Assembly (NCBI RefSeq): GCF_005233845.1
Contig: NZ_SZQL01000013.1
Span: 62,001 to 126,000 of the forward strand
Direction: 5' to 3'
Origin: Ilyomonas limi
GTDB taxonomy: Bacteria > Bacteroidota > Bacteroidia > Chitinophagales > Chitinophagaceae
Length of the DNA: 64,000 bases
Part shown: positions 53,958-64,000 of the stretch, one piece after another
How the letters are laid out: every line of letters starts with the position of its first letter
Numbering within the stretch: the stretch's first letter is position 1
The notes under the pieces: generated by a model
Seen by the model: only the letters and a program-made list of their open reading frames with translations
Told to the model about the DNA's origin: nothing
Database searches by the model: none
Translations under genes and position numbers: made by a program

Positions 53958-56573
53958 TTATCCACCTCCCATCATTTCCGTGCCGGCAGGAGCACCTGAC
54001 GGCGCATTGCGGCGCTTGAATAAGGAAGCATCAAACTTTCCAAAACGATAATTAATGTTAAGCCGCACCACCTGCGGGTCTCTGCGGCGGGTTGCAATTT
54101 GCGAAAAGTATTCGGTAGGCGAAAAATACGATTCAGAATAGGTTTTAAAGCGTTGCGTACGTGCAAAGTCGTTGATGCTAAGTGTAATGGAAGCACCGCT
54201 GCCACCTTTCCAGTTCCAGTCTTTGCGTATCGCTGCATCAAAGCTGTATTGCGGATAAATATAGCCCTGTGCCGAGGTCATGGGTGGAGGTCCCCAACCA
54301 CGACCGCCCGAGCCTTCGTTGCGTGCGCTACCCGAAGAAGCCGGCAATACTGTTTTAGACTGATAATTGCCGGAGAGTTGTATAGAAAAACCTGCAGGCA
54401 GTTTGATGTTGTTGTTTAGCTTGGCAAACCAGCTCCAGCGCTCTACCGTTACATCATTCGTTAGGTTGCTGCCATTAATTTTGGAGTTAAACAAATTGAT
54501 ATTGGCAGTCATGTCCCAAACTTTTGCCAGCAAAATTTTGTTGGTAAATTCCAGTCCGTAAGTACTGCTGCTATTGGTATTTACAAACGTGCTGAAATAA
54601 ACGCTATCTGCTTTATTAATTGTTTTATCCGGGTTCAATCCGCGGTAAATATAGTTGGTGATGAGATTATCGGAATGTTTATAATAAACTGAAATGAGCA
54701 GGTTGGCACCTTTTGTATAAGCATTGCTGTAATTCACTTCAAAAGCATTGGTAAACTCAGGTTTTAGTGCCGGATTACCAACAGAAAGGTTCAGCGGATC
54801 GGTATTATCTATAAACGGCAGCAACTGGAAAAAGTTGGGGCGGTTGATACGCCGTGAGTAATTCGCCTGCATATCCTGTTTATCGCTCAACCGGAACGTA
54901 AGGAATGCACTTGGGAAAAGGCTGATTGGATAGCTCACTTTAAACCCGGAATCTTTGCCCAGCAAAGTGCCGTTGTAGTTAGAGCTTTCAGCCCGCAAAC
55001 CAACCTGATAGCTGAAGTTCTTTAGCTTCATGCTATAAGTAGCATAACCTGCATACACCTGGTCGGTGTATTTGTAGCGGCTACTAATGTTGGCAAGCGT
55101 TACATACCCTTTTACACTCGTATCATAGTATTCCTGTATGTTCTCGTTTTCGTAATTGCGGATAGCACCTCTCACGCCGGCTTCTATTTTTATTTTGTCC
55201 GTTACCGGATTTTCGTAATCGCTTTGTACCGTTACAAATCTGTTATACCCACCACCACCAATGCGTTGCAGGTAAGGCGTATATTTCTGGGCACCATCGG
55301 GTGCAAAATAGCGCGTATCGTAGTTGCCATCGCTGTTGCTGTTGCTATAATTGTAATTAACATCGGCAGTAAGGTCGTGACCATCTTTTGCAAAATTGTG
55401 TTTATACCCCAGTTGCGCGCCTGTGTTATGAAAGCTTCTTTTTGTAATGGCATCGCGGAGGCTTTTGGTAGTAAATGCGTCACTTACCACACTATCAATA
55501 GTCTGGTTTTCAGCGTTATTAAAATTGCCATTTACATAACTGCCCGAAACGGTGAGCGTATTTCTGTTATCGATAAAATAGTCAAATCCGCCTCGCACAA
55601 AGGCAAACGAACCATTCATCGTACCATCGCTGTACTGATGAATATTATCCGCTGTGCCATTGATATAATTGTTTCTCAAGACATCTGTGGTAGAAGAAGA
55701 TTTGCGCTGGTTTACGTTTCCACTTAGGAAAAAATTCACCTTATTCTGGCGGGCATTGATATCGAAACCGCCGTTCATTCTTCCTCTCGAATCGGCACCT
55801 ACACGTATATTACCATTGTAGCCTATCTTTTTATTTTTCTTCAATACAATATTCAATATACCGGCATTACCACCCGAAGCATCGTACTTGGCAGAAGGAT
55901 TGGTGATCAGTTCTACCTTGTCAATAATGTCTGCGGGTATCTGGTCGAGCGTTAAGGTTGTCGGGCGACCATCCACAAATATGGTTGGTGCGGCATTGCG
56001 CAGCGTTACATTGCCATCAATATCCACGTTTAAAGATGGTATTTGCTTCATTACTTCGGTAGCTGTTTGTCCGGTAGTAACGATGTTTTTATCCACATTA
56101 AATACTCTTCTGTCCACGCCCATTTCAAAAAATGGTTTGGCACTCGTAGTAACGGTAACACCGGCCAAATTGGTTTCAGAAGGTTCGAGTTTGATGTTGC
56201 CCAAGTCCTTATCGAAGGAGCCGGCTGAAAAAGAAACTTTATCTGTAAAATCGGTGTACCCGATGTTGGATACATGCAGTGTAAAATTGCCGCGAACCGG
56301 CAGTTTGTCGAGGTTAAAATCGCCGTTAGGCTCCGTAAGTACAGTAGCTACGGGCATGTCGTGCGTTTTACCCGTACTGTCTTTCCGGGAAGCAATCAGC
56401 AATACGGTAGCGCCATTTAAACCTTTATTGGTTTTGGCATCCACTACTTTACCAAAAAAATGTCCGTTATTAGCCATAGGCGCAAAGTTGCCTCTGGGTT
56501 GCCCGCCGCCCGGAGGCTGCGCAATGGAAAGCAGGCAGGAAAGGGATAAGAAGAGTAATAAAAGGTATTTCAT
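53958..56573 (-). CDS. TonB-dependent outer membrane receptor
   Basis: An 871-aa outer membrane protein. A Sec signal peptide (about residues 1-18) precedes a carboxypeptidase-regulatory-like domain (GKVVDAKTNKGLNGATVLL, about 41-59 onward), the plug (about 145-250, with RNAAPTIFVDGRPTTLTLDQ), and a large barrel of the outer-membrane-beta-barrel family (RINRPNFFQLLPFIDNTDPL, NYRFGKFDASLF near the end). The lack of a SusD partner and the barrel subtype distinguish it from SusC. It imports or binds an unknown ligand. It is a single-gene unit with its own terminator. Confidence 0.9.
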   Translation of the reverse strand: MKYLLLLFLSLSCLLSIAQPPGGGQPRGNFAPMANNGHFFGKVVDAKTNKGLNGATVLLIASRKDSTGKTHDMPVATVLTEPNGDFNLDKLPVRGNFTLHVSNIGYTDFTDKVSFSAGSFDKDLGNIKLEPSETNLAGVTVTTSAKPFFEMGVDRRVFNVDKNIVTTGQTATEVMKQIPSLNVDIDGNVTLRNAAPTIFVDGRPTTLTLDQIPADIIDKVELITNPSAKYDASGGNAGILNIVLKKNKKIGYNGNIRVGADSRGRMNGGFDINARQNKVNFFLSGNVNQRKSSSTTDVLRNNYINGTADNIHQYSDGTMNGSFAFVRGGFDYFIDNRNTLTVSGSYVNGNFNNAENQTIDSVVSDAFTTKSLRDAITKRSFHNTGAQLGYKHNFAKDGHDLTADVNYNYSNSNSDGNYDTRYFAPDGAQKYTPYLQRIGGGGYNRFVTVQSDYENPVTDKIKIEAGVRGAIRNYENENIQEYYDTSVKGYVTLANISSRYKYTDQVYAGYATYSMKLKNFSYQVGLRAESSNYNGTLLGKDSGFKVSYPISLFPSAFLTFRLSDKQDMQANYSRRINRPNFFQLLPFIDNTDPLNLSVGNPALKPEFTNAFEVNYSNAYTKGANLLISVYYKHSDNLITNYIYRGLNPDKTINKADSVYFSTFVNTNSSSTYGLEFTNKILLAKVWDMTANINLFNSKINGSNLTNDVTVERWSWFAKLNNNIKLPAGFSIQLSGNYQSKTVLPASSGSARNEGSGGRGWGPPPMTSAQGYIYPQYSFDAAIRKDWNWKGGSGASITLSINDFARTQRFKTYSESYFSPTEYFSQIATRRRDPQVVRLNINYRFGKFDASLFKRRNAPSGAPAGTEMMGGG

Positions 56574-56688
56574 ACAGGGTTTCTTTATAGTGATTACTTA
56601 TATAACTTTAGCCATCATACAAGAATCACCGCAAAGTTTGAGCAACGGATAATGCTGTATGAAAGTTTTCGGCTATACCCTGCTTAGT

Positions 56689-57249
56689 TTAGGCAATCCG
56701 TGTTAAGAAAATCTGAATGCCGCCGGTAACGAAGCCGATAAGCGCACCGAAAAACGCTATTTTGTTCAATTCGCTTCGCAATGCATATTTAACTTTATTG
56801 ATATCAATAGCTTCCAGCCTGTTTGCAACTATTTTATCTATCGCTATTGCCGACGTTGCATTGGATAAATATTGATTGATAATGGTTGGAAAAAGTTCTT
56901 TCAATTCGGCCATAAATATGGCTTTCATATCTGCCACTAATTTGTCGCTGATGAACATAGTGAGCATAGGCATGGCAGCAGGCAATTTCACCCGTAAAAA
57001 GTGGTCAATGTGCTCTTCGGCAACAGGCAGTATTTTTTCAATCGCTTCTTTGCTGGTGAGTTTGGCCGCTATCTCATCGAACGAAAAACCGGCAGCCACG
57101 TAACTCCCTGCCTGCATTGCTAACGTTTTTTGCTGCGCCTGCAAACGTTTGAAGAATAAACTGATTCCTAAACGGCTTATCAGCCAGCCGGTGAAGGCTG
57201 AAATAATGGGTAATAAGTATAACAAAGTATTTGTCATAAATAATTGCAT
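56689..57249 (-). CDS. DUF445-type membrane protein
   Basis: A 186-aa protein with an N-terminal helix (LLYLLPIISAFTGWLISRL) and a C-terminal helix (IAFFGALIGFVTGGIQIFL), and a charged helical middle part. This fits the DUF445 family, short form. Function unknown. ATG 57249 is used; ATG 57237 four codons later is an alternative. It follows the tRNA-His gene and its terminator on the same strand. Confidence 0.72.
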   Translation of the reverse strand: MQLFMTNTLLYLLPIISAFTGWLISRLGISLFFKRLQAQQKTLAMQAGSYVAAGFSFDEIAAKLTSKEAIEKILPVAEEHIDHFLRVKLPAAMPMLTMFISDKLVADMKAIFMAELKELFPTIINQYLSNATSAIAIDKIVANRLEAIDINKVKYALRSELNKIAFFGALIGFVTGGIQIFLTRIA

Positions 57250-57256
57250 TCAGTAA

Positions 57257-57291
57257 AAAAGCCTTGCAAATATTGTATTTACAAGGCTTTT
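57257..57291 (-). terminator. Terminator after tRNA-His
   Basis: 10-bp perfect stem AAAAGCCTTG / CAAGGCTTTT with a 15-nt loop, continuing TT on the minus strand. It lies 10 bases past the tRNA 3' end. Confidence 0.8.
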
Positions 57292-57301
57292 ACTATGTGT
57301 G

Positions 57302-57376
<75 letters not shown>

Positions 57377-57388
57377 GTACAAGGGCTG

Positions 57389-57419
57389 CAAATGTAAAAT
57401 GATTTTGCTGTAAAACAAA
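57389..57419 (-). promoter_or_regulatory. Bacteroidota-type promoter of tRNA-His
   Basis: On the minus strand TTTG-N19-TACATTTG, a full consensus match. The -7 box ends 12 bases before the mature tRNA 5' end. Confidence 0.78.
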
Positions 57420-58193
57420 TGATTTGTTGCTAAAAATTTCTTTTAAACCGTGGAGGCATTACGTTATAGAAAGGTATTCTGATGTTTGGCTGATTTTTGC
57501 ACTGTTTATATACACTGTTACAGAAAATTGTTCACTTTATGAGCAGGTGTACACACTAAAGGTTTTGAAAGTTTGACTTCTCACAGTGAGTTCTTATTTG
57601 TCACTTTTTTCTTGATAAAAAAGTAACCAAAAAGTATGAATGTACTGATGTTTTACCAATGGTATTCATAAGAGCGCTGCGCTTAGTTATTTCGTGAACT
57701 ACTATTTTCTTTTGCCTCAATGAGCCACTCCGTGGGTTCAAGGATTGCATGATCGCTCCGCGCATCCGTCCGGGCATGCGCCTCCACTTACACTAATTGC
57801 ATCTCTGTTTTAGATGAATGGCCTGGCTGGCAATGATTCCAGGAGCATCGGTGTATTCCCTACTAAGGTTGAAATTAATTTATGTAACCGTGTAGTAAGG
57901 CTAATATGGTAGTGTCTCAGTTTGAAATTTAATGCTCGACCGCGCAATAGCCCTGCACTTTGTTTATTACAACTGATGCAACATTCTTATAAACATATTT
58001 TACATTTATATACTGTTTATTTTAACGGGAGTTTAAGTTTTAATGCTGCTGCGAACACCACTAATATCTATATTCTCATAGACACAGATAAAATCATTTA
58101 TATTTATTAATAAATCAACTTCCGGTATCCGCGATTTTGATAATAAATTAAATTCGGTTTCAATTTTGTTTCCACGTTTCTTTACCTAATCTT
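57420..58193. other. Long non-coding region before the CheB-CheR kinase gene
   Basis: About 770 bases with no supported gene. It holds an inverted repeat ACTTTTTT / AAAAAAGT at 57603-57624 followed by AACCAAAAAG, which resembles a Bacteroidota intergenic repeat. A GC-richer patch at 57715-57790 is unlike its surroundings, and the left 34-bp inverted repeat starts at 57908. A 62-codon ORF at 57922 is judged spurious. Confidence 0.5.
57908..57941 (+). repeat. Left 34-bp inverted repeat flanking the kinase gene
   Basis: Begins GGTAGTGT, core CTCAGTTTGAAATTTAAT, ends GCTCGACC. Its reverse complement recurs at 61901-61934 with 30 of 34 positions identical; all four differences are transitions. 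Confidence 0.85.
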
Positions 58194-61100
58194 ATGAACA
58201 CACCTAACGATCAACCGGAAAAACAACCTATTACCAATCATGCTGCCCTTCCTGTTGTTGCTTTGGGCGCTTCTGCCGGAGGTTTAGATGCCATCGTACA
58301 ATTACTCAGTGTGCTTACAGCAGATACAGGCATGGCTTATGTAATCATCCAGCATCTTGCCCCCACGCATGAGAGCATGCTGTCTTCCATTCTTGGTAAA
58401 CATACCAAAATGACGGTACAGGAAGTAACAGACCGGGTACTGGTGGAGCCTAATGTTGTTTATATCATCCCGCCCGGTAAAGACATGGAAATTATAGATG
58501 GTCATCTTACATTAGCTCCCAGGACTGCAAAGCTGAACATGCCCATTGATAAATTCTTTATTTCACTGGCTGAAGTAAAAGGCAGCGACGCTATTGGAAT
58601 AGTGCTTTCCGGCGCTGCTACAGATGGCACAGCAGGGTTGAAAGCAATCAGGGAAGCAGGCGGATTAACCATTGTTCAGGATGATTCCGCCAAGTTCCAG
58701 AGCATGCCTAAAAGTGCTATTGCGGAAGGGGTAGTAGATTTGGTGCTCCGCCCCGAAGACATTGCCAAAGAATTAATAAAGATTAGCAGAAATCCTTTTG
58801 CACGGAAAAGCCTGGACGATGCTGGTGAAGAGAAGGATAACAACGATGAAGAGGTGCAGCATATTTTTAAACAACTGAAAGAATATGCAGGCGTTAATTT
58901 TAATTTTTACAAAGAGACAAGTGTATACAGGCGCATGATACGCCGCATGCTGATTATAAACCTGCAATCATTTAAAGATTACAACAACTATCTTAAAGAG
59001 CATAGGGAAGAATTGAACCTTCTGTACGATGACTTACTGATAAATGTTACCAGGTTTTTCAGAGAACCTGAAACAAATGAATATGTAAGCAGCACTTTAC
59101 TGCCACACATACTAAAAAATAAAAAGAATAACGAACCTATCAGAATATGGGTGCCTGCCTGCGCAGCAGGTCAGGAAGTGTATTCGCTGGCTATGCTGTT
59201 GTTAGAAACAACAAATACCCATAAGCAGAAACCTGTGATACAAATTTTTGGAAGTGATTTAAGCGAAAACTGTATAAAAAAAGCAAGAATAGGCGTCTAT
59301 TCAAAAAATGAAGTGGACAATATTCCGCCACCACTGCTTACGCGGTATTTTGATGCCATAGATGTAGGCTACCGGGTTAAAAAAACAATCAAGGAACTAT
59401 GTTTGTTTACCAGGCATAATGTTTTGACTGATCCTCCTTTTTCAAGATTGGATCTCATTAGCTGCTGTAATTTCCTGATTTATCTAAAAGCGGAAGGACA
59501 ACACAAAGTAATACATACTTTTCATTATGCGCTGCAAAACGATGGCTACCTGGTATTAGGCAAATCTGAAACCATTGGCAACGCTACTAAATACTTTAAA
59601 TATGTAGGTAATGAATTCAAGGCAAATATTTATATAAAAGAGTTTTACAAACGGGCTTTGTTACTAAACCAAACCTTTTTAAACGATAATTTACGGGTAC
59701 AGGATAGCGAAGAAAAGCAGAAAATAAACAGCATTCCAGGTGCAGCTCCTTTAAACCTGGCTGTAGATCACCTGCTGCTGACACAATTTATTCCTTCCAA
59801 CGTGGTCATCAACAAAGAAATGGAAATATTGCAGTTCCGGGGGTCAACCAGCCTGTACCTGGAACCAGCACAGGGAGCAGCCTCCTTTAACCTGTTGAAA
59901 ATGGCACGTACCGGGCTAAAAGTTGAACTCAGGAATGCTGTTTTTAAATCTATGAGAAGCGGTCAGGCTGCTAAAAAGGAAGGACTGGAATTTAAATTCC
60001 AGGATGTTAGCTACAAGTGTGATATAGAAGTAGTACCGCTACATATCGTTCCCGATGAAAAGTATTATTTGGTATTATTCAAAAATACACCAGCCAGTGC
60101 CTTGTCAGAACCTGCTACTAATAAACGTAAAAGCGGAAGAGAAAAGGAACTGGAAAAAGAGCTTCTGGTTATAAAGGAAGACATGACCACCATTATTGAA
60201 GAGCGGGAAGGTGCTATAGAAGAATTACAAACGGCTAATGAGGAGATTATTTCAACCAATGAAGAACTGCAAACAATTAATGAAGAGTTGCATACTTCAA
60301 AGGAAGAAATGGAATCAACCAATGAAGAGCTTGCTACCATTAACGACCAGTTGATGCTGCGCAATGAGCAGTTGAATGAATTACAGAATTATACAGATGG
60401 CATCGTAGCAACTATTGCTGAAGCGATGATTGTGCTTGATAAAAACCTGGTAGTGAGATCAGCTAACCAGAGCTTTTATGCCCTTTTTAAAACCAGCCCG
60501 GAAGAAACAGAAGGCTTTTACCTGTTTGATTTGGGTAATGGTCAATGGAAGATACCGCGGCTAAAAGAATTGTTGCTACAGGTTATACCACAGAGAAATG
60601 AAATCTATAATTTTAAAGTAACACATGAGTTTCCCCGCATAGGCAATAAAATTATGATGCTCAATGCAAAGTTGTTATCGCAAAAGATACATAGCCAGGA
60701 ACTGATCTTTTTAGCTATACAGGATATTACTGCGCATGTGGAGGCAGAGAAAATAATCCGGGAAAGAGAGGAATGGTTTAACAATATGGCTAATAATGCT
60801 CCGGTGATGATCTGGGTGGCGGGAAAGGATAAGACAATAACTTTCTTCAATAATACCTGGTATGCCTTTACAGGCAATACCGCTTCCGAAAACGTGGAAA
60901 ATGATTGGATGAAGGCTATTCAAAAGGAAGATGTAGAGCGTTATCTCACAGCATATAATGAATCGTTTGATAGTCAACAGCCGTTCACCATAGAATATCG
61001 TTTGAAACGGTATGACAGCGTTTACAGATGGGTGCTTAATCAGGGAAAACCTACTTATGATGGAAGTAGTAATTTTACCGGATATATTGGCACCTGTACA

Positions 61101-61814
61101 GATATAGATGACCAGAAAAAAATAGCAGAAAAAAAAGATGAGTTTATAACTATTGCCAGCCATGAATTAAAGACTCCTTTAACCACTGCAAAAGCTTATG
61201 TGCAGTTATTAGAAGACCTTCTTAAAGAAAACGGCAACGAAGAGATCATTACATTTTTGCATAAAACCAAGGTCTCCATTGAAAAGCTAAACCAGTTGAT
61301 TGGACAATTGCTGGATACGACCAAATTGCAGAATGGCAAAATGACCCTGAATATCACTGAATTCAATTTTGAAGACCTGTTTATTGAAACAATTGACTTT
61401 ATACGTGCATCACACCCTAAATACAATATAACGGCTACAGGTAATGCCGGTACTACAATACATGCAGATTATGAACGCCTGCAACAGGTGATCACCAATT
61501 TATTAACTAATGCTGTTAAGTATTCTCAATCGTCTGAAAAGATTGAAATACATGTTGGGGATAGCAATGATGAATTACTGTTTTCAGTAAGAGACCATGG
61601 TGTTGGTATTCACCCCAATAATCAAAAGAATATTTTTGAGAAGTATTACAGAGAGGCTGAGAAAACAACTCATTATCCCGGCTTAGGGGTTGGGCTATTT
61701 ATTGCCGCGGAAATAATTGAACGCCATCATGGACGTATATGGGTAGAAAGCATGGTTGGAGAGGGATCTACATTTTACTTTACCATACCCCTAAAAAGGT
61801 CATCAGGTGATTAG
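58194..61814 (+). CDS. CheB-CheR-PAS-histidine kinase fusion protein
   Basis: A 1206-aa cytoplasmic signalling protein. CheB-type methylesterase: Ser27 (GASAGG), His54 (IIQHLAPTHES) and Asp144 (GAATDGTAG) are all present. CheR-type methyltransferase follows at about 225-485. Its NVTRFFREP is normal, but the SAM motif reads VPACAAGQEVYS at 320-331 and a second motif reads ISCCNFLIYL at 422-431. A long coiled coil spans about 648-735, followed by two PAS domains (about 735-850 and 857-975). The kinase core has His990 (ASHELKTPLT), N box NLLTNAVKYS, DHGVGI and GLGVGLFIA. There is no receiver domain. No cognate response regulator or chemotaxis gene is nearby. It lies between 34-bp inverted repeats. 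Confidence 0.93.
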   Translation: MNTPNDQPEKQPITNHAALPVVALGASAGGLDAIVQLLSVLTADTGMAYVIIQHLAPTHESMLSSILGKHTKMTVQEVTDRVLVEPNVVYIIPPGKDMEIIDGHLTLAPRTAKLNMPIDKFFISLAEVKGSDAIGIVLSGAATDGTAGLKAIREAGGLTIVQDDSAKFQSMPKSAIAEGVVDLVLRPEDIAKELIKISRNPFARKSLDDAGEEKDNNDEEVQHIFKQLKEYAGVNFNFYKETSVYRRMIRRMLIINLQSFKDYNNYLKEHREELNLLYDDLLINVTRFFREPETNEYVSSTLLPHILKNKKNNEPIRIWVPACAAGQEVYSLAMLLLETTNTHKQKPVIQIFGSDLSENCIKKARIGVYSKNEVDNIPPPLLTRYFDAIDVGYRVKKTIKELCLFTRHNVLTDPPFSRLDLISCCNFLIYLKAEGQHKVIHTFHYALQNDGYLVLGKSETIGNATKYFKYVGNEFKANIYIKEFYKRALLLNQTFLNDNLRVQDSEEKQKINSIPGAAPLNLAVDHLLLTQFIPSNVVINKEMEILQFRGSTSLYLEPAQGAASFNLLKMARTGLKVELRNAVFKSMRSGQAAKKEGLEFKFQDVSYKCDIEVVPLHIVPDEKYYLVLFKNTPASALSEPATNKRKSGREKELEKELLVIKEDMTTIIEEREGAIEELQTANEEIISTNEELQTINEELHTSKEEMESTNEELATINDQLMLRNEQLNELQNYTDGIVATIAEAMIVLDKNLVVRSANQSFYALFKTSPEETEGFYLFDLGNGQWKIPRLKELLLQVIPQRNEIYNFKVTHEFPRIGNKIMMLNAKLLSQKIHSQELIFLAIQDITAHVEAEKIIREREEWFNNMANNAPVMIWVAGKDKTITFFNNTWYAFTGNTASENVENDWMKAIQKEDVERYLTAYNESFDSQQPFTIEYRLKRYDSVYRWVLNQGKPTYDGSSNFTGYIGTCTDIDDQKKIAEKKDEFITIASHELKTPLTTAKAYVQLLEDLLKENGNEEIITFLHKTKVSIEKLNQLIGQLLDTTKLQNGKMTLNITEFNFEDLFIETIDFIRASHPKYNITATGNAGTTIHADYERLQQVITNLLTNAVKYSQSSEKIEIHVGDSNDELLFSVRDHGVGIHPNNQKNIFEKYYREAEKTTHYPGLGVGLFIAAEIIERHHGRIWVESMVGEGSTFYFTIPLKRSSGD

Positions 61815-62230
61815 AATTGTACGTTTCTCTACCTATGAAACTCTTAGCTCAATAGATTGTCCTGCATCGTAGGAGTAACAGATATTATTCTTTATTGTGA
61901 GGTCAAGTATTAAATTTCAAACTGAGGCGCTACCTAAAATTTAGTTGTTTAAAAAATAAGATATAATACAGCTTTATTCTTCCTGGTGTCTTTGCGCCTT
62001 CACAATTATCATTATTTCCACGTAAATCCTGTTTGATAGGTAATGAAAATTTATTGGTAAAATACATAGCTATTTACCAATTTCAGATTAATATCTCTGA
62101 ACGCTTACTTCTTTATAAAAGCAATACTCCTGCTCCGGCATCACATATTTATGCTATTGAAACAGCTTCATCAGCCATCTATTTTTGCAGTACACAATTC
62201 AACCTAAACCCTGAAAAAAACACACAGATT
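61815..62230. other. Non-coding stretch after the kinase gene
   Basis: 416 bases without a supported gene. It contains the right 34-bp inverted repeat and a patch near 61983-62000 (TGGTGTCTTTGCGCCTTCAC) that looks like a decayed intergenic repeat. The lipoprotein frame is open here, but its likely start is at 62231. Confidence 0.5.
61901..61934 (-). repeat. Right 34-bp inverted repeat flanking the kinase gene
   Basis: Reverse complement of the repeat at 57908-57941 with four transition differences. The perfect shared core is 18 bp. It ends 120 bases after the kinase stop. Confidence 0.85.
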
Positions 62231-62620
62231 ATGAAACATGTTAGAATGTTGGTGCTGGCAATAGCAGTTATCTTTTTTGCAGCTTCGTGCAGTAAAGACA
62301 AAGGCGACAAGCCTGCCGATAATGCCTCTATCAAAGGCAGATGGAATGTAAGTTCTATACTTACTATTGAGCCCGACGCCGAGCCTTATACTTACACCGG
62401 ACAAAATGGTGACTTTGTAGAATTTAAAGAAGACGGCACCATGTCGTCGAGTGTGGATGGCTACGAGCAAACGGTAGATTATGAAATAATAGATGCTACA
62501 CACGTAAAAGTAGATGGCAGTGTTACCGAAGTAAAGGAATTAACAAATAGTAAACTGGTAATGCTTGATCCGGCACACGAAGGACAACCCGAAGATATTA
62601 CTTACACACTTACCAAATAA
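62231..62620 (+). CDS. Small lipocalin-like lipoprotein
   Basis: A 129-aa lipoprotein with signal peptide and lipobox FAASC (Cys about residue 20). The mature part opens IKGRWNVSSILTIEPD and continues DFVEFKEDGTMSSSVDGYEQTVDYEI, the pattern of the Bacteroidota lipocalin-like family. The frame stays open to 62033, but ATG 62231 gives the lipoprotein signal directly. Ligand and role unknown. A terminator follows. Confidence 0.78.
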   Translation: MKHVRMLVLAIAVIFFAASCSKDKGDKPADNASIKGRWNVSSILTIEPDAEPYTYTGQNGDFVEFKEDGTMSSSVDGYEQTVDYEIIDATHVKVDGSVTEVKELTNSKLVMLDPAHEGQPEDITYTLTK

Positions 62621-62641
62621 ATATTCACATACATAGCAAGT

Positions 62642-62670
62642 AAAAAGTGAGGCTGCAGACCTCACTTTTT
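62642..62670 (+). terminator. Intrinsic terminator after the lipocalin-like gene
   Basis: Perfect 11-bp stem AAAAAGTGAGG / CCTCACTTTTT, 7-nt loop, then GTTTTT. Confidence 0.9.
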
Positions 62671-62686
62671 GTTTTTAATCTGTTTA

Positions 62687-62798
62687 GCCACGAAGATGAT
62701 AAGGTTAATTATATTTAAATATTTACGCTGCGATACAAGAATACAAAGCACGTAAATAATACAGTTGATACAACTTTGTGCCTTTGTTCCTTCGTGGC
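62687..62798. repeat. 112-bp segment bounded by 9-bp inverted repeats
   Basis: Arms GCCACGAAG (62687-62695) and CTTCGTGGC (62790-62798). The right end reads CTTTGTGCCTTTGTTCCTTC, a form of a common Bacteroidota intergenic repeat. It lies in the convergent gap before the SpmA/B-type gene. Confidence 0.55.
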
Positions 62799-62805
62799 AA
62801 TATCA

Positions 62806-63999
62806 TTAATGAAAGAATAAATACCCGATACAAATAGCGGAAATTACCCCAATCAAATCGGCTGCAATGCCTGCCCATATTGCATAGCGCACATTCTTGA
62901 TACCTACGCTGCCAAAGTATAAAGCAATAATATAAAAAGTAGTATCGGCAGAACCTCTTAATACACTTGCCATTTTACCCACGAAAGAATCGGGACCATA
63001 CGCCGGGTTTTTAAAAATATCCAGCATCAGTCCGCGGGCGCCGCTGCCGCTAAAGGGCACCATGATAGATACGGGCAATGCCGGTACAAAATCGGTATTC
63101 AAGCCAGCTAAATGAATGATATAAGCAATGCCATCGGTAAGATACCCTAATGCACCGCTATCGCGAAACACACGAATGGCAACCAGCATTCCAACCAAGT
63201 AGGGTATGATTTTAAGTACCACATCAAAGCCGTTTTTGGCACCATCAATAAATGTATCAAACACCGATACTTTTTTGTAGGCACCGCCTGCAATAATGAG
63301 GATAATAATAGTAAGCAATATCAGATTACCGGAGATATTGGTGAAGATATTACGCGCAGCATCACTCAATGTACTTACAAGTAATAAAAGTGCTGCAATA
63401 ATAGCTGCAATAGTCAGCAACCAGGCAAGCAACACCGCATCCCACTTTAATTTTTGCCTTATTCCAACTATAATAATAGAAGCTAAAGTAGCTACCACTG
63501 TACCTGCCACACAAGGAATAAAAACACTTGTTGCATCGGTAGAGCCGGCCGCCACGCGGTAAGAAATAACAGATAAAGGAATTAAGGTTAAGCCACTTGT
63601 ATGCAACACCAGAAACATGATTTGCGCATCGCTTGCTTTATCTGCAGAAGGATTAAGCGATTGCAAACTTTGCATTGCCTTCAATCCAAATGGGGTAGCA
63701 GCATTATCCAAGCCAAGCATGTTGGCACTGAAGTTCATCACCATCTCTCCCATTGCCGGATGATTGTCGGGCACCTCCGGAAATAAACGCTTTAAAAACG
63801 GGTTGAGTAAACGAGCCATCCAGCGGATAGCACCGGCTTTCTCTGCAATATTCATTAAACCCAGGAAGAAAACCATCGTGCCTGCGAGTGGAAAAGCAAC
63901 ATCGGTAACGGATGTTTTGGCTGCATCAAACAAGCCATCTGTAAGGGTCTTAAAAATAGTAGTATCGCCAAGCCAAATCCATTTATATAAAGCAATGAA
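62806..63999 (-). CDS. SpmA/SpmB-type nucleoside-recognition membrane protein, 5' end cut
   Basis: At least 397 residues of a membrane protein that joins SpmA-like and SpmB-like halves, each with a nucleoside-recognition (Gate) domain. The first half has NFSANMLGLDNAATPFGLKAM and FLVLHTSGLTLIPLSVI. The second has IIPYLVGMLVAIRVFRDSGAL and PVSIMVPFSGSGARGLM, followed by VLRGSADTTFYIIALYFGSVG. The frame stays open to the window edge and reads IALYKWIWLGDTTIFKTLTDG before the TTG at 63933, matching the family N-terminal region, so the real start lies beyond 64000. Function outside sporulation is not established. Confidence 0.88.
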   Translation of the reverse strand, partial: FIALYKWIWLGDTTIFKTLTDGLFDAAKTSVTDVAFPLAGTMVFFLGLMNIAEKAGAIRWMARLLNPFLKRLFPEVPDNHPAMGEMVMNFSANMLGLDNAATPFGLKAMQSLQSLNPSADKASDAQIMFLVLHTSGLTLIPLSVISYRVAAGSTDATSVFIPCVAGTVVATLASIIIVGIRQKLKWDAVLLAWLLTIAAIIAALLLLVSTLSDAARNIFTNISGNLILLTIIILIIAGGAYKKVSVFDTFIDGAKNGFDVVLKIIPYLVGMLVAIRVFRDSGALGYLTDGIAYIIHLAGLNTDFVPALPVSIMVPFSGSGARGLMLDIFKNPAYGPDSFVGKMASVLRGSADTTFYIIALYFGSVGIKNVRYAIWAGIAADLIGVISAICIGYLFFH

Positions 64000-64000
64000 A

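Follow-up and report, generated by a model that had tools for sequence, protein, structure and literature searches.

Towards the right-hand end of the window, that is, the whole 64,000-nucleotide stretch of the Ilyomonas limi genome that was analysed, one intact gene for a large sensor kinase lies between two inverted repeats that span 4,027 bp from arm to arm (Table 1). The left arm, 57908-57941 (GGTAGTGTCTCAGTTTGAAATTTAATGCTCGACC), is identical at 30 of 34 positions to the right arm, 61901-61934, read as its reverse complement (GGTAGCGCCTCAGTTTGAAATTTAATACTTGACC); they differ by four transitions, and the arms have a perfect core of 18 bp in common (CTCAGTTTGAAATTTAAT). The sequence-only reading had described these properties, and each of them was reproduced. 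Repeat detection extends the arms to 42 bp, with 36 identities (57908-57949 and 61893-61934). The kinase contains CheB (E-value 1.1e-52), CheR (5.2e-52), HATPase_c (1.9e-29) and HisKA (2.1e-12) domains, and PAS is present as well. That reading had further placed the kinase gene alone, without a transposase, between the arms. It was right about one intact gene and no transposase gene; a relic of ten transposase codons (57944-57973) was not recognisable to it. Scans for sigma-70 promoters and terminators gave no excess over shuffled controls. A tRNA gene (Rfam RF00005, 66 bits) is located at 57302-57375 on the minus strand, 0.5 kb to the left of the left end.

Table 1. Features of the bracketed kinase locus, in window numbering
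Feature	Position	Strand	Evidence or remark
Left flank, expected position of a target duplication: GCTAATAT	57900..57907	.	4/8 to right flank
Left terminal inverted repeat with subterminal transposase-5'-end motif	57908..57941	+	Outer bases 19/19 to the family consensus
5'-end motif TGCTCGACCG (consensus TGCTTGACCG)	57933..57942	+	Motif counts in transposase-bearing elements
Transposase relic, codons 237-246, AIALHFVYYN, then stop	57944..57973	+	27/29 nt to the transposase of L255
Cargo: intact 1206-aa CheB-CheR-PAS-HisKA-HATPase kinase	58194..61814	+	Pfam
Right terminal inverted repeat (61901-61934) plus 8 bp in common with the left arm, including CAATA	61893..61934	-	36/42 to left arm
Right flank, expected position of a target duplication: TAAAATTT	61935..61942	.	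4/8 to left flank

Taken by itself, the similarity of the arms is barely above chance, since simulated sequences reach a maximum of 29/34 (best of 20 sequences of 10 kb). This slight margin is what could be held in favour of a chance inverted repeat, or of an intergenic motif without mobility. The 18 bp of the core, with at most 3 mismatches, have two matches in the window where 0.14 are expected. What excludes chance is that the arms match an independent terminal repeat, which elsewhere is accompanied by a transposase and 8-bp duplications, while control matches were zero in 246 genomes for the ends and zero among 396 genomes for the 34-mer with at most 3 mismatches. The chance explanation is thus ruled out for practical purposes, with hardly any probability left to it, and the inverted repeat is real.

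The independent terminal repeat is GGTAGYGYCTCAGTTTGAA, which corresponds to the outer 19 bases of the window repeat; the right end agrees with this family consensus at 17 of 19 of its outer bases. It occurs in at least 118 stretches of genome contigs, from Bacteroidota, Pseudomonadota, Acidobacteriota and other phyla, and in at least 120 IMG/VR stretches. Among the matches listed, many ends face a partner at a distance of 0.1-5 kb, and the 8 bp adjoining the two on the outside are identical. Pooled over the retrieved loci there are 104 facing pairs, of which 66 have a perfect target duplication of 8 bp and 6 have one of 7/8; inside these 72 pairs, 50 show similarity to a common transposase and 22 do not. 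In the relatives, an IS1-type DDE transposase is located between the duplication-flanked ends. It scores 34.5 and 32.5 bits with PF03400 (cut-off 24.1; E-values 3e-8 and 1.3e-7), and its plasmid homologs are annotated as IS1 family transposases. With NF033558 it reaches 72 bits, below the 100-bit NCBIfam threshold for the equivalog, so that the group is IS1-like and not a strict equivalog. Because homologous ends are found elsewhere together with this transposase and 8-bp duplications, the window repeats are the ends of a widespread group of single-ORF, IS1-like DDE elements. The suggestion that they are insertion-sequence ends is therefore borne out by hundreds of homologous ends. The likeness to the IS1 family (PF03400, NF033558) lies in the relatives with matching ends, which encode the transposase and generate the duplications; in contrast, all that the window unit retains of a transposase gene is the ten-codon relic. 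Within the same bacterial family, 36 of 246 genomes have such ends and 14 encode the transposase, and elsewhere in the phylum the end is rare (15 of 395 genomes). A literature search for the terminal sequence returned no relevant paper mentioning it.

The inner part of the repeat informs about the type of end. Positions 20-34 (GAAATTTRATGCTTGACC) are not random but match what Bacteroidota elements have subterminally at their transposase-5' end. An exact copy of the complete 34-mer lies at the 5' end of L256, a transposase element of the family genome G218 that is flanked by a target duplication; G228 has an exact copy too, and G781 one with a single mismatch. Altogether the 34-mer is present in 5 of 396 family genomes, and twice only in the genome of the window. 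The left window copy differs from the element 5' end at one position, and the right copy differs from the pattern at three. When the consensus TGCTTGACCG was sought with at most 2 mismatches in 60 transposase-bearing pairs, 16 had it at the 5' end, 2 had it at the 3' end and no pair had it on both sides, the null rate being about 2.7% per end. Since the subterminal motif is present on both arms, the window contains two inward-facing ends, both of the transposase-5' type. In L256, a motif of the TGCTTGACCG type is followed 17 bases further on by TACCTTTG, which we take to fit the Bacteroidota promoter pattern. The window motif TGCTCGACCG is likely a remnant of the parent element's putative inward promoter. 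A parallel for symmetric ends is provided by a MITE-like unit of 188 bp (L105, 2958-3145), in which some 25 bp of subterminal sequence are common to the two ends.

Directly inside the left end, the relic reads in frame as residues 237-246 of the family transposases, with 10 of 10 amino acids conserved. Its score was reached by none of 1000 shuffles, but by 3 of 1000 real pieces of the window; the protein score is modest, and it is the position directly at the left end that makes the relic convincing. The right arm shares the start of this junction (GACC-N-C-N-CAATA) and then diverges. The junction CTYGACCNCNCAATA is absent from all other retrieved loci, and the same deletion junction was found in none of the viral contigs. 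As the right arm repeats the start of a left junction unseen in the other loci, a single internal-deletion derivative is the probable ancestor of both arms, on the evidence of about six bases. Some 66 bp of element sequence are left in the window on the left and some 42 bp on the right.

The host genome (5.88 Mb) contains two good ends only, both in the window, facing each other 4 kb apart; under random placement, the chance of such an arrangement of two ends is about 3e-4. Instead of a solitary repeat scattered over the genome, the search for the 34-mer thus returned the two window copies and a single further match of 22/25 at G000:C2:96493-96517 (position 8494 of L204). This third match has no 5' motif and no partner within the 17 kb read, and with 3 mismatches in 25 bases it is a doubtful candidate for a solo remnant. 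No family transposase was detected at E<=1 and no second copy of the unit was found in this assembly, a draft of 70 contigs from which copies may be missing. An IS1595 transposase (PF12762) was considered as a source as well, and none is encoded in the genome.

Among the relatives, 22 units with a duplication of at least 7/8 have no detectable transposase, and some of these consist of a single gene. Single-gene examples with duplications encode an Imm32 protein (L265, 1603-1994), a RibD_C protein (L091) and a methyltransferase (L093); others carry membrane proteins (L095 and L081) or, on an IMG/VR contig, a DNA methyltransferase (L401, 1213-3717). One unit (L429, 5754-6267) has an ORF of 104 amino acids behind a window-like 5'-type end, with a 7/8 duplication. 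From the existence of duplication-flanked units without a transposase, it is a fair inference that cassettes mobilised in trans occur in the IS1-like family. Another IMG/VR unit, duplication-flanked and without transposase (L363, 3122-4729), holds a 207-aa ORF that by eye looks SocA/DUF4065-like.

The sequence-only reading had proposed that the kinase gene was moved as a cargo unit by a transposase in trans. Trans mobilisation itself is thereby supported for the family, but the movement of a single unit at this locus is unproven, because the locus has no duplication and two ends of the 5' type, and the genome contains no transposase. The kinase has a patchy distribution in the bacterial family (48 of 149 genomes with a match at 1e-100), and its best homolog, at 50% identity, is from another genus; no genome of the same genus was among the sampled family members. 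None of about 30 homolog loci has the same ends, nor were kinase homologs with these ends found in viral contigs. In three genomes of three genera (G112, G077 and G017), the DUF445-TonB pair adjoins the protease gene and no kinase is present there. The kinase is probably an acquired cargo in the Ilyomonas limi genome and not ancestral. In a comparison of window positions 53958-64000 with these genera (L296, L297 and L298), the order there is Gate, YchF, NusG-like, tail-type protease, DUF445 and TonB-type receptor; in the window, Gate is inverted next to the unit, the intervening genes are gone and the kinase is situated at the synteny breakpoint. The breakpoint lies between DUF445 and Gate and has no base-level position. 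Across 14 related genera, the Gate gene alone is in common with the stretch searched on the 3' side of the unit. Two short, paralog-like lipoprotein genes flank Gate about 6 kb apart, at 62231-62620 and 68316-68705 in window numbering, the latter on the same contig (C5) beyond the window, as read in L202.

We favour the reading, at a probability of about 0.5, that the locus is a fossil transposase-less cassette of the mobile insertion cassette type, derived from the IS1-like family and carrying the CheB-CheR-PAS-HisKA kinase. On this reading, an internal deletion in an autonomous copy would have joined the 5' end to transposase codon 237, and the kinase gene would have become bracketed by two inverted copies of the deleted end. 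The two ends would then have been recognised by a transposase acting in trans, and the 4.0-kb segment excised and inserted here. Later on, the transposase source would have been lost, the right end mutated and the target duplication erased through mutation or local rearrangement; the rearranged state of the locus, with Gate inverted relative to the three genera, suggests that the duplication could have been removed in this way. The kinase would be a passenger and not part of the machinery, and it would probably be expressed from its own upstream region, since the left end retains its inward promoter motif in a decayed form only. Several observations speak against this cassette. It lacks a target duplication, the flanks GCTAATAT and TAAAATTT agreeing at 4 of 8 positions only, though most facing pairs have one. 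It has two 5'-type ends, a combination seen in 0 of 60 transposase-bearing elements. Its 4.0 kb compare with at most 2.5 kb (L401) for the duplication-flanked units seen here in which no transposase was detected. Furthermore, kinase homologs elsewhere occur without such ends, the host draft offers neither transposase nor second copy, and the right arm adds only 8 bp beyond the 34-mer, so that the argument for a common junction rests on few bases. The missing duplication need not be decisive, since this is common in other elements: in Amoebophilus asiaticus, direct repeats are missing from 83% of the full-length IS copies (PMC3196728), and 60% of MITEAba12 copies have no duplications while 40% do (PMC6382973).

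A possible, clearly less probable reading is that of two separate remnants: copies of a deletion derivative would have inserted independently, in opposite orientations, around a resident kinase and lost their inner parts. Such an origin would account for outer flanks without a common duplication, and inward ends of the same 5' type are what is expected once two inverted copies lose their inner sides; the 30 bp of transposase retained by the left arm, as opposed to almost none in the right, likewise point to different truncations. It fits less well with the spacing and facing of the only two good ends in the genome, which random placement would seldom produce, with the lack of scattered copies of the derivative, or with the absence of the kinase from this place in three genera in which the DUF445-TonB pair is kept. 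A single unit is preferred over two remnants because the only two good ends face each other and seemingly share one deletion junction. It is improbable that the locus is instead a decayed composite transposon, in which the inner parts of two inverted full elements were deleted, or a recombined unit with swapped flanks. In the latter case, recombination between two copies of the unit would have inverted the neighbouring chromosome, exchanged the flanks and removed the duplication. Both variants account at once for the lack of a duplication and for two outer 5' ends, and the synteny breakpoint relative to G112, G077 and G017 agrees with them; yet the genome has no known second copy and no known reciprocal junction, no 3' (inner) ends are left, and the breakpoint is not placed to the base. 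A composite transposon consists of two IS copies around a cargo, while the window retains short terminal pieces only.

Read as a fossil cassette, the window locus is an additional example of a type already known. In mobile insertion cassettes such as MIC231 of Bacillus cereus and mic-qnrD, as defined in PMC3913671, two inverted IS-family repeats bracket a gene unrelated to transposition, without a transposase, just as in the window, and the founding case was mobilised in trans by its cognate IS (PMC3913671). The window unit differs in its ends, which are IS1-like instead of IS231 and both of one type, in its size of 4.0 kb and its 1206-aa kinase, and in lacking both a target duplication (usual but not obligatory) and a transposase source in the genome. 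With MITEs such as MITEAba12 (PMC6382973), it shares a non-autonomous nature, ends that match an IS and the frequent absence of duplications, but these are short (113 bp for MITEAba12) and geneless, as opposed to 4,027 bp with a 1206-aa ORF.

An anonymous repeat can now be assigned to the termini of a widespread IS1-like group, and its diagnostic sequence can serve to find further cassettes. More interesting than the locus itself is that this group repeatedly forms single-gene cassettes without a transposase; for this genome, a large signalling kinase is flagged as probable acquired cargo. It would go further, and we consider it rather unlikely, to propose that two copies of a promoter-bearing IS1-like 5' end can be mobilised in trans and have moved an entire sensor kinase between bacteria. 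If true, single regulatory, immunity and methylase genes would have a broad vehicle in this under-described IS1-like group.

Transporter ISs (PMC3129680) also have IS ends around a passenger gene; they keep their own transposase, unlike the window unit, and the intact elements of L253, L257 and L261 fit this type exactly. In L257 (3333-4556) and L261 (6347-7585), the cargo gene adjoins the transposase of an intact IS1-like element. The cargo of L257 matches PADLOC PD-Lambda-2_B (E-value 1.6e-18) and is a candidate anti-phage protein, and the cargo at the corresponding position of L261 is an apparent homolog of it.
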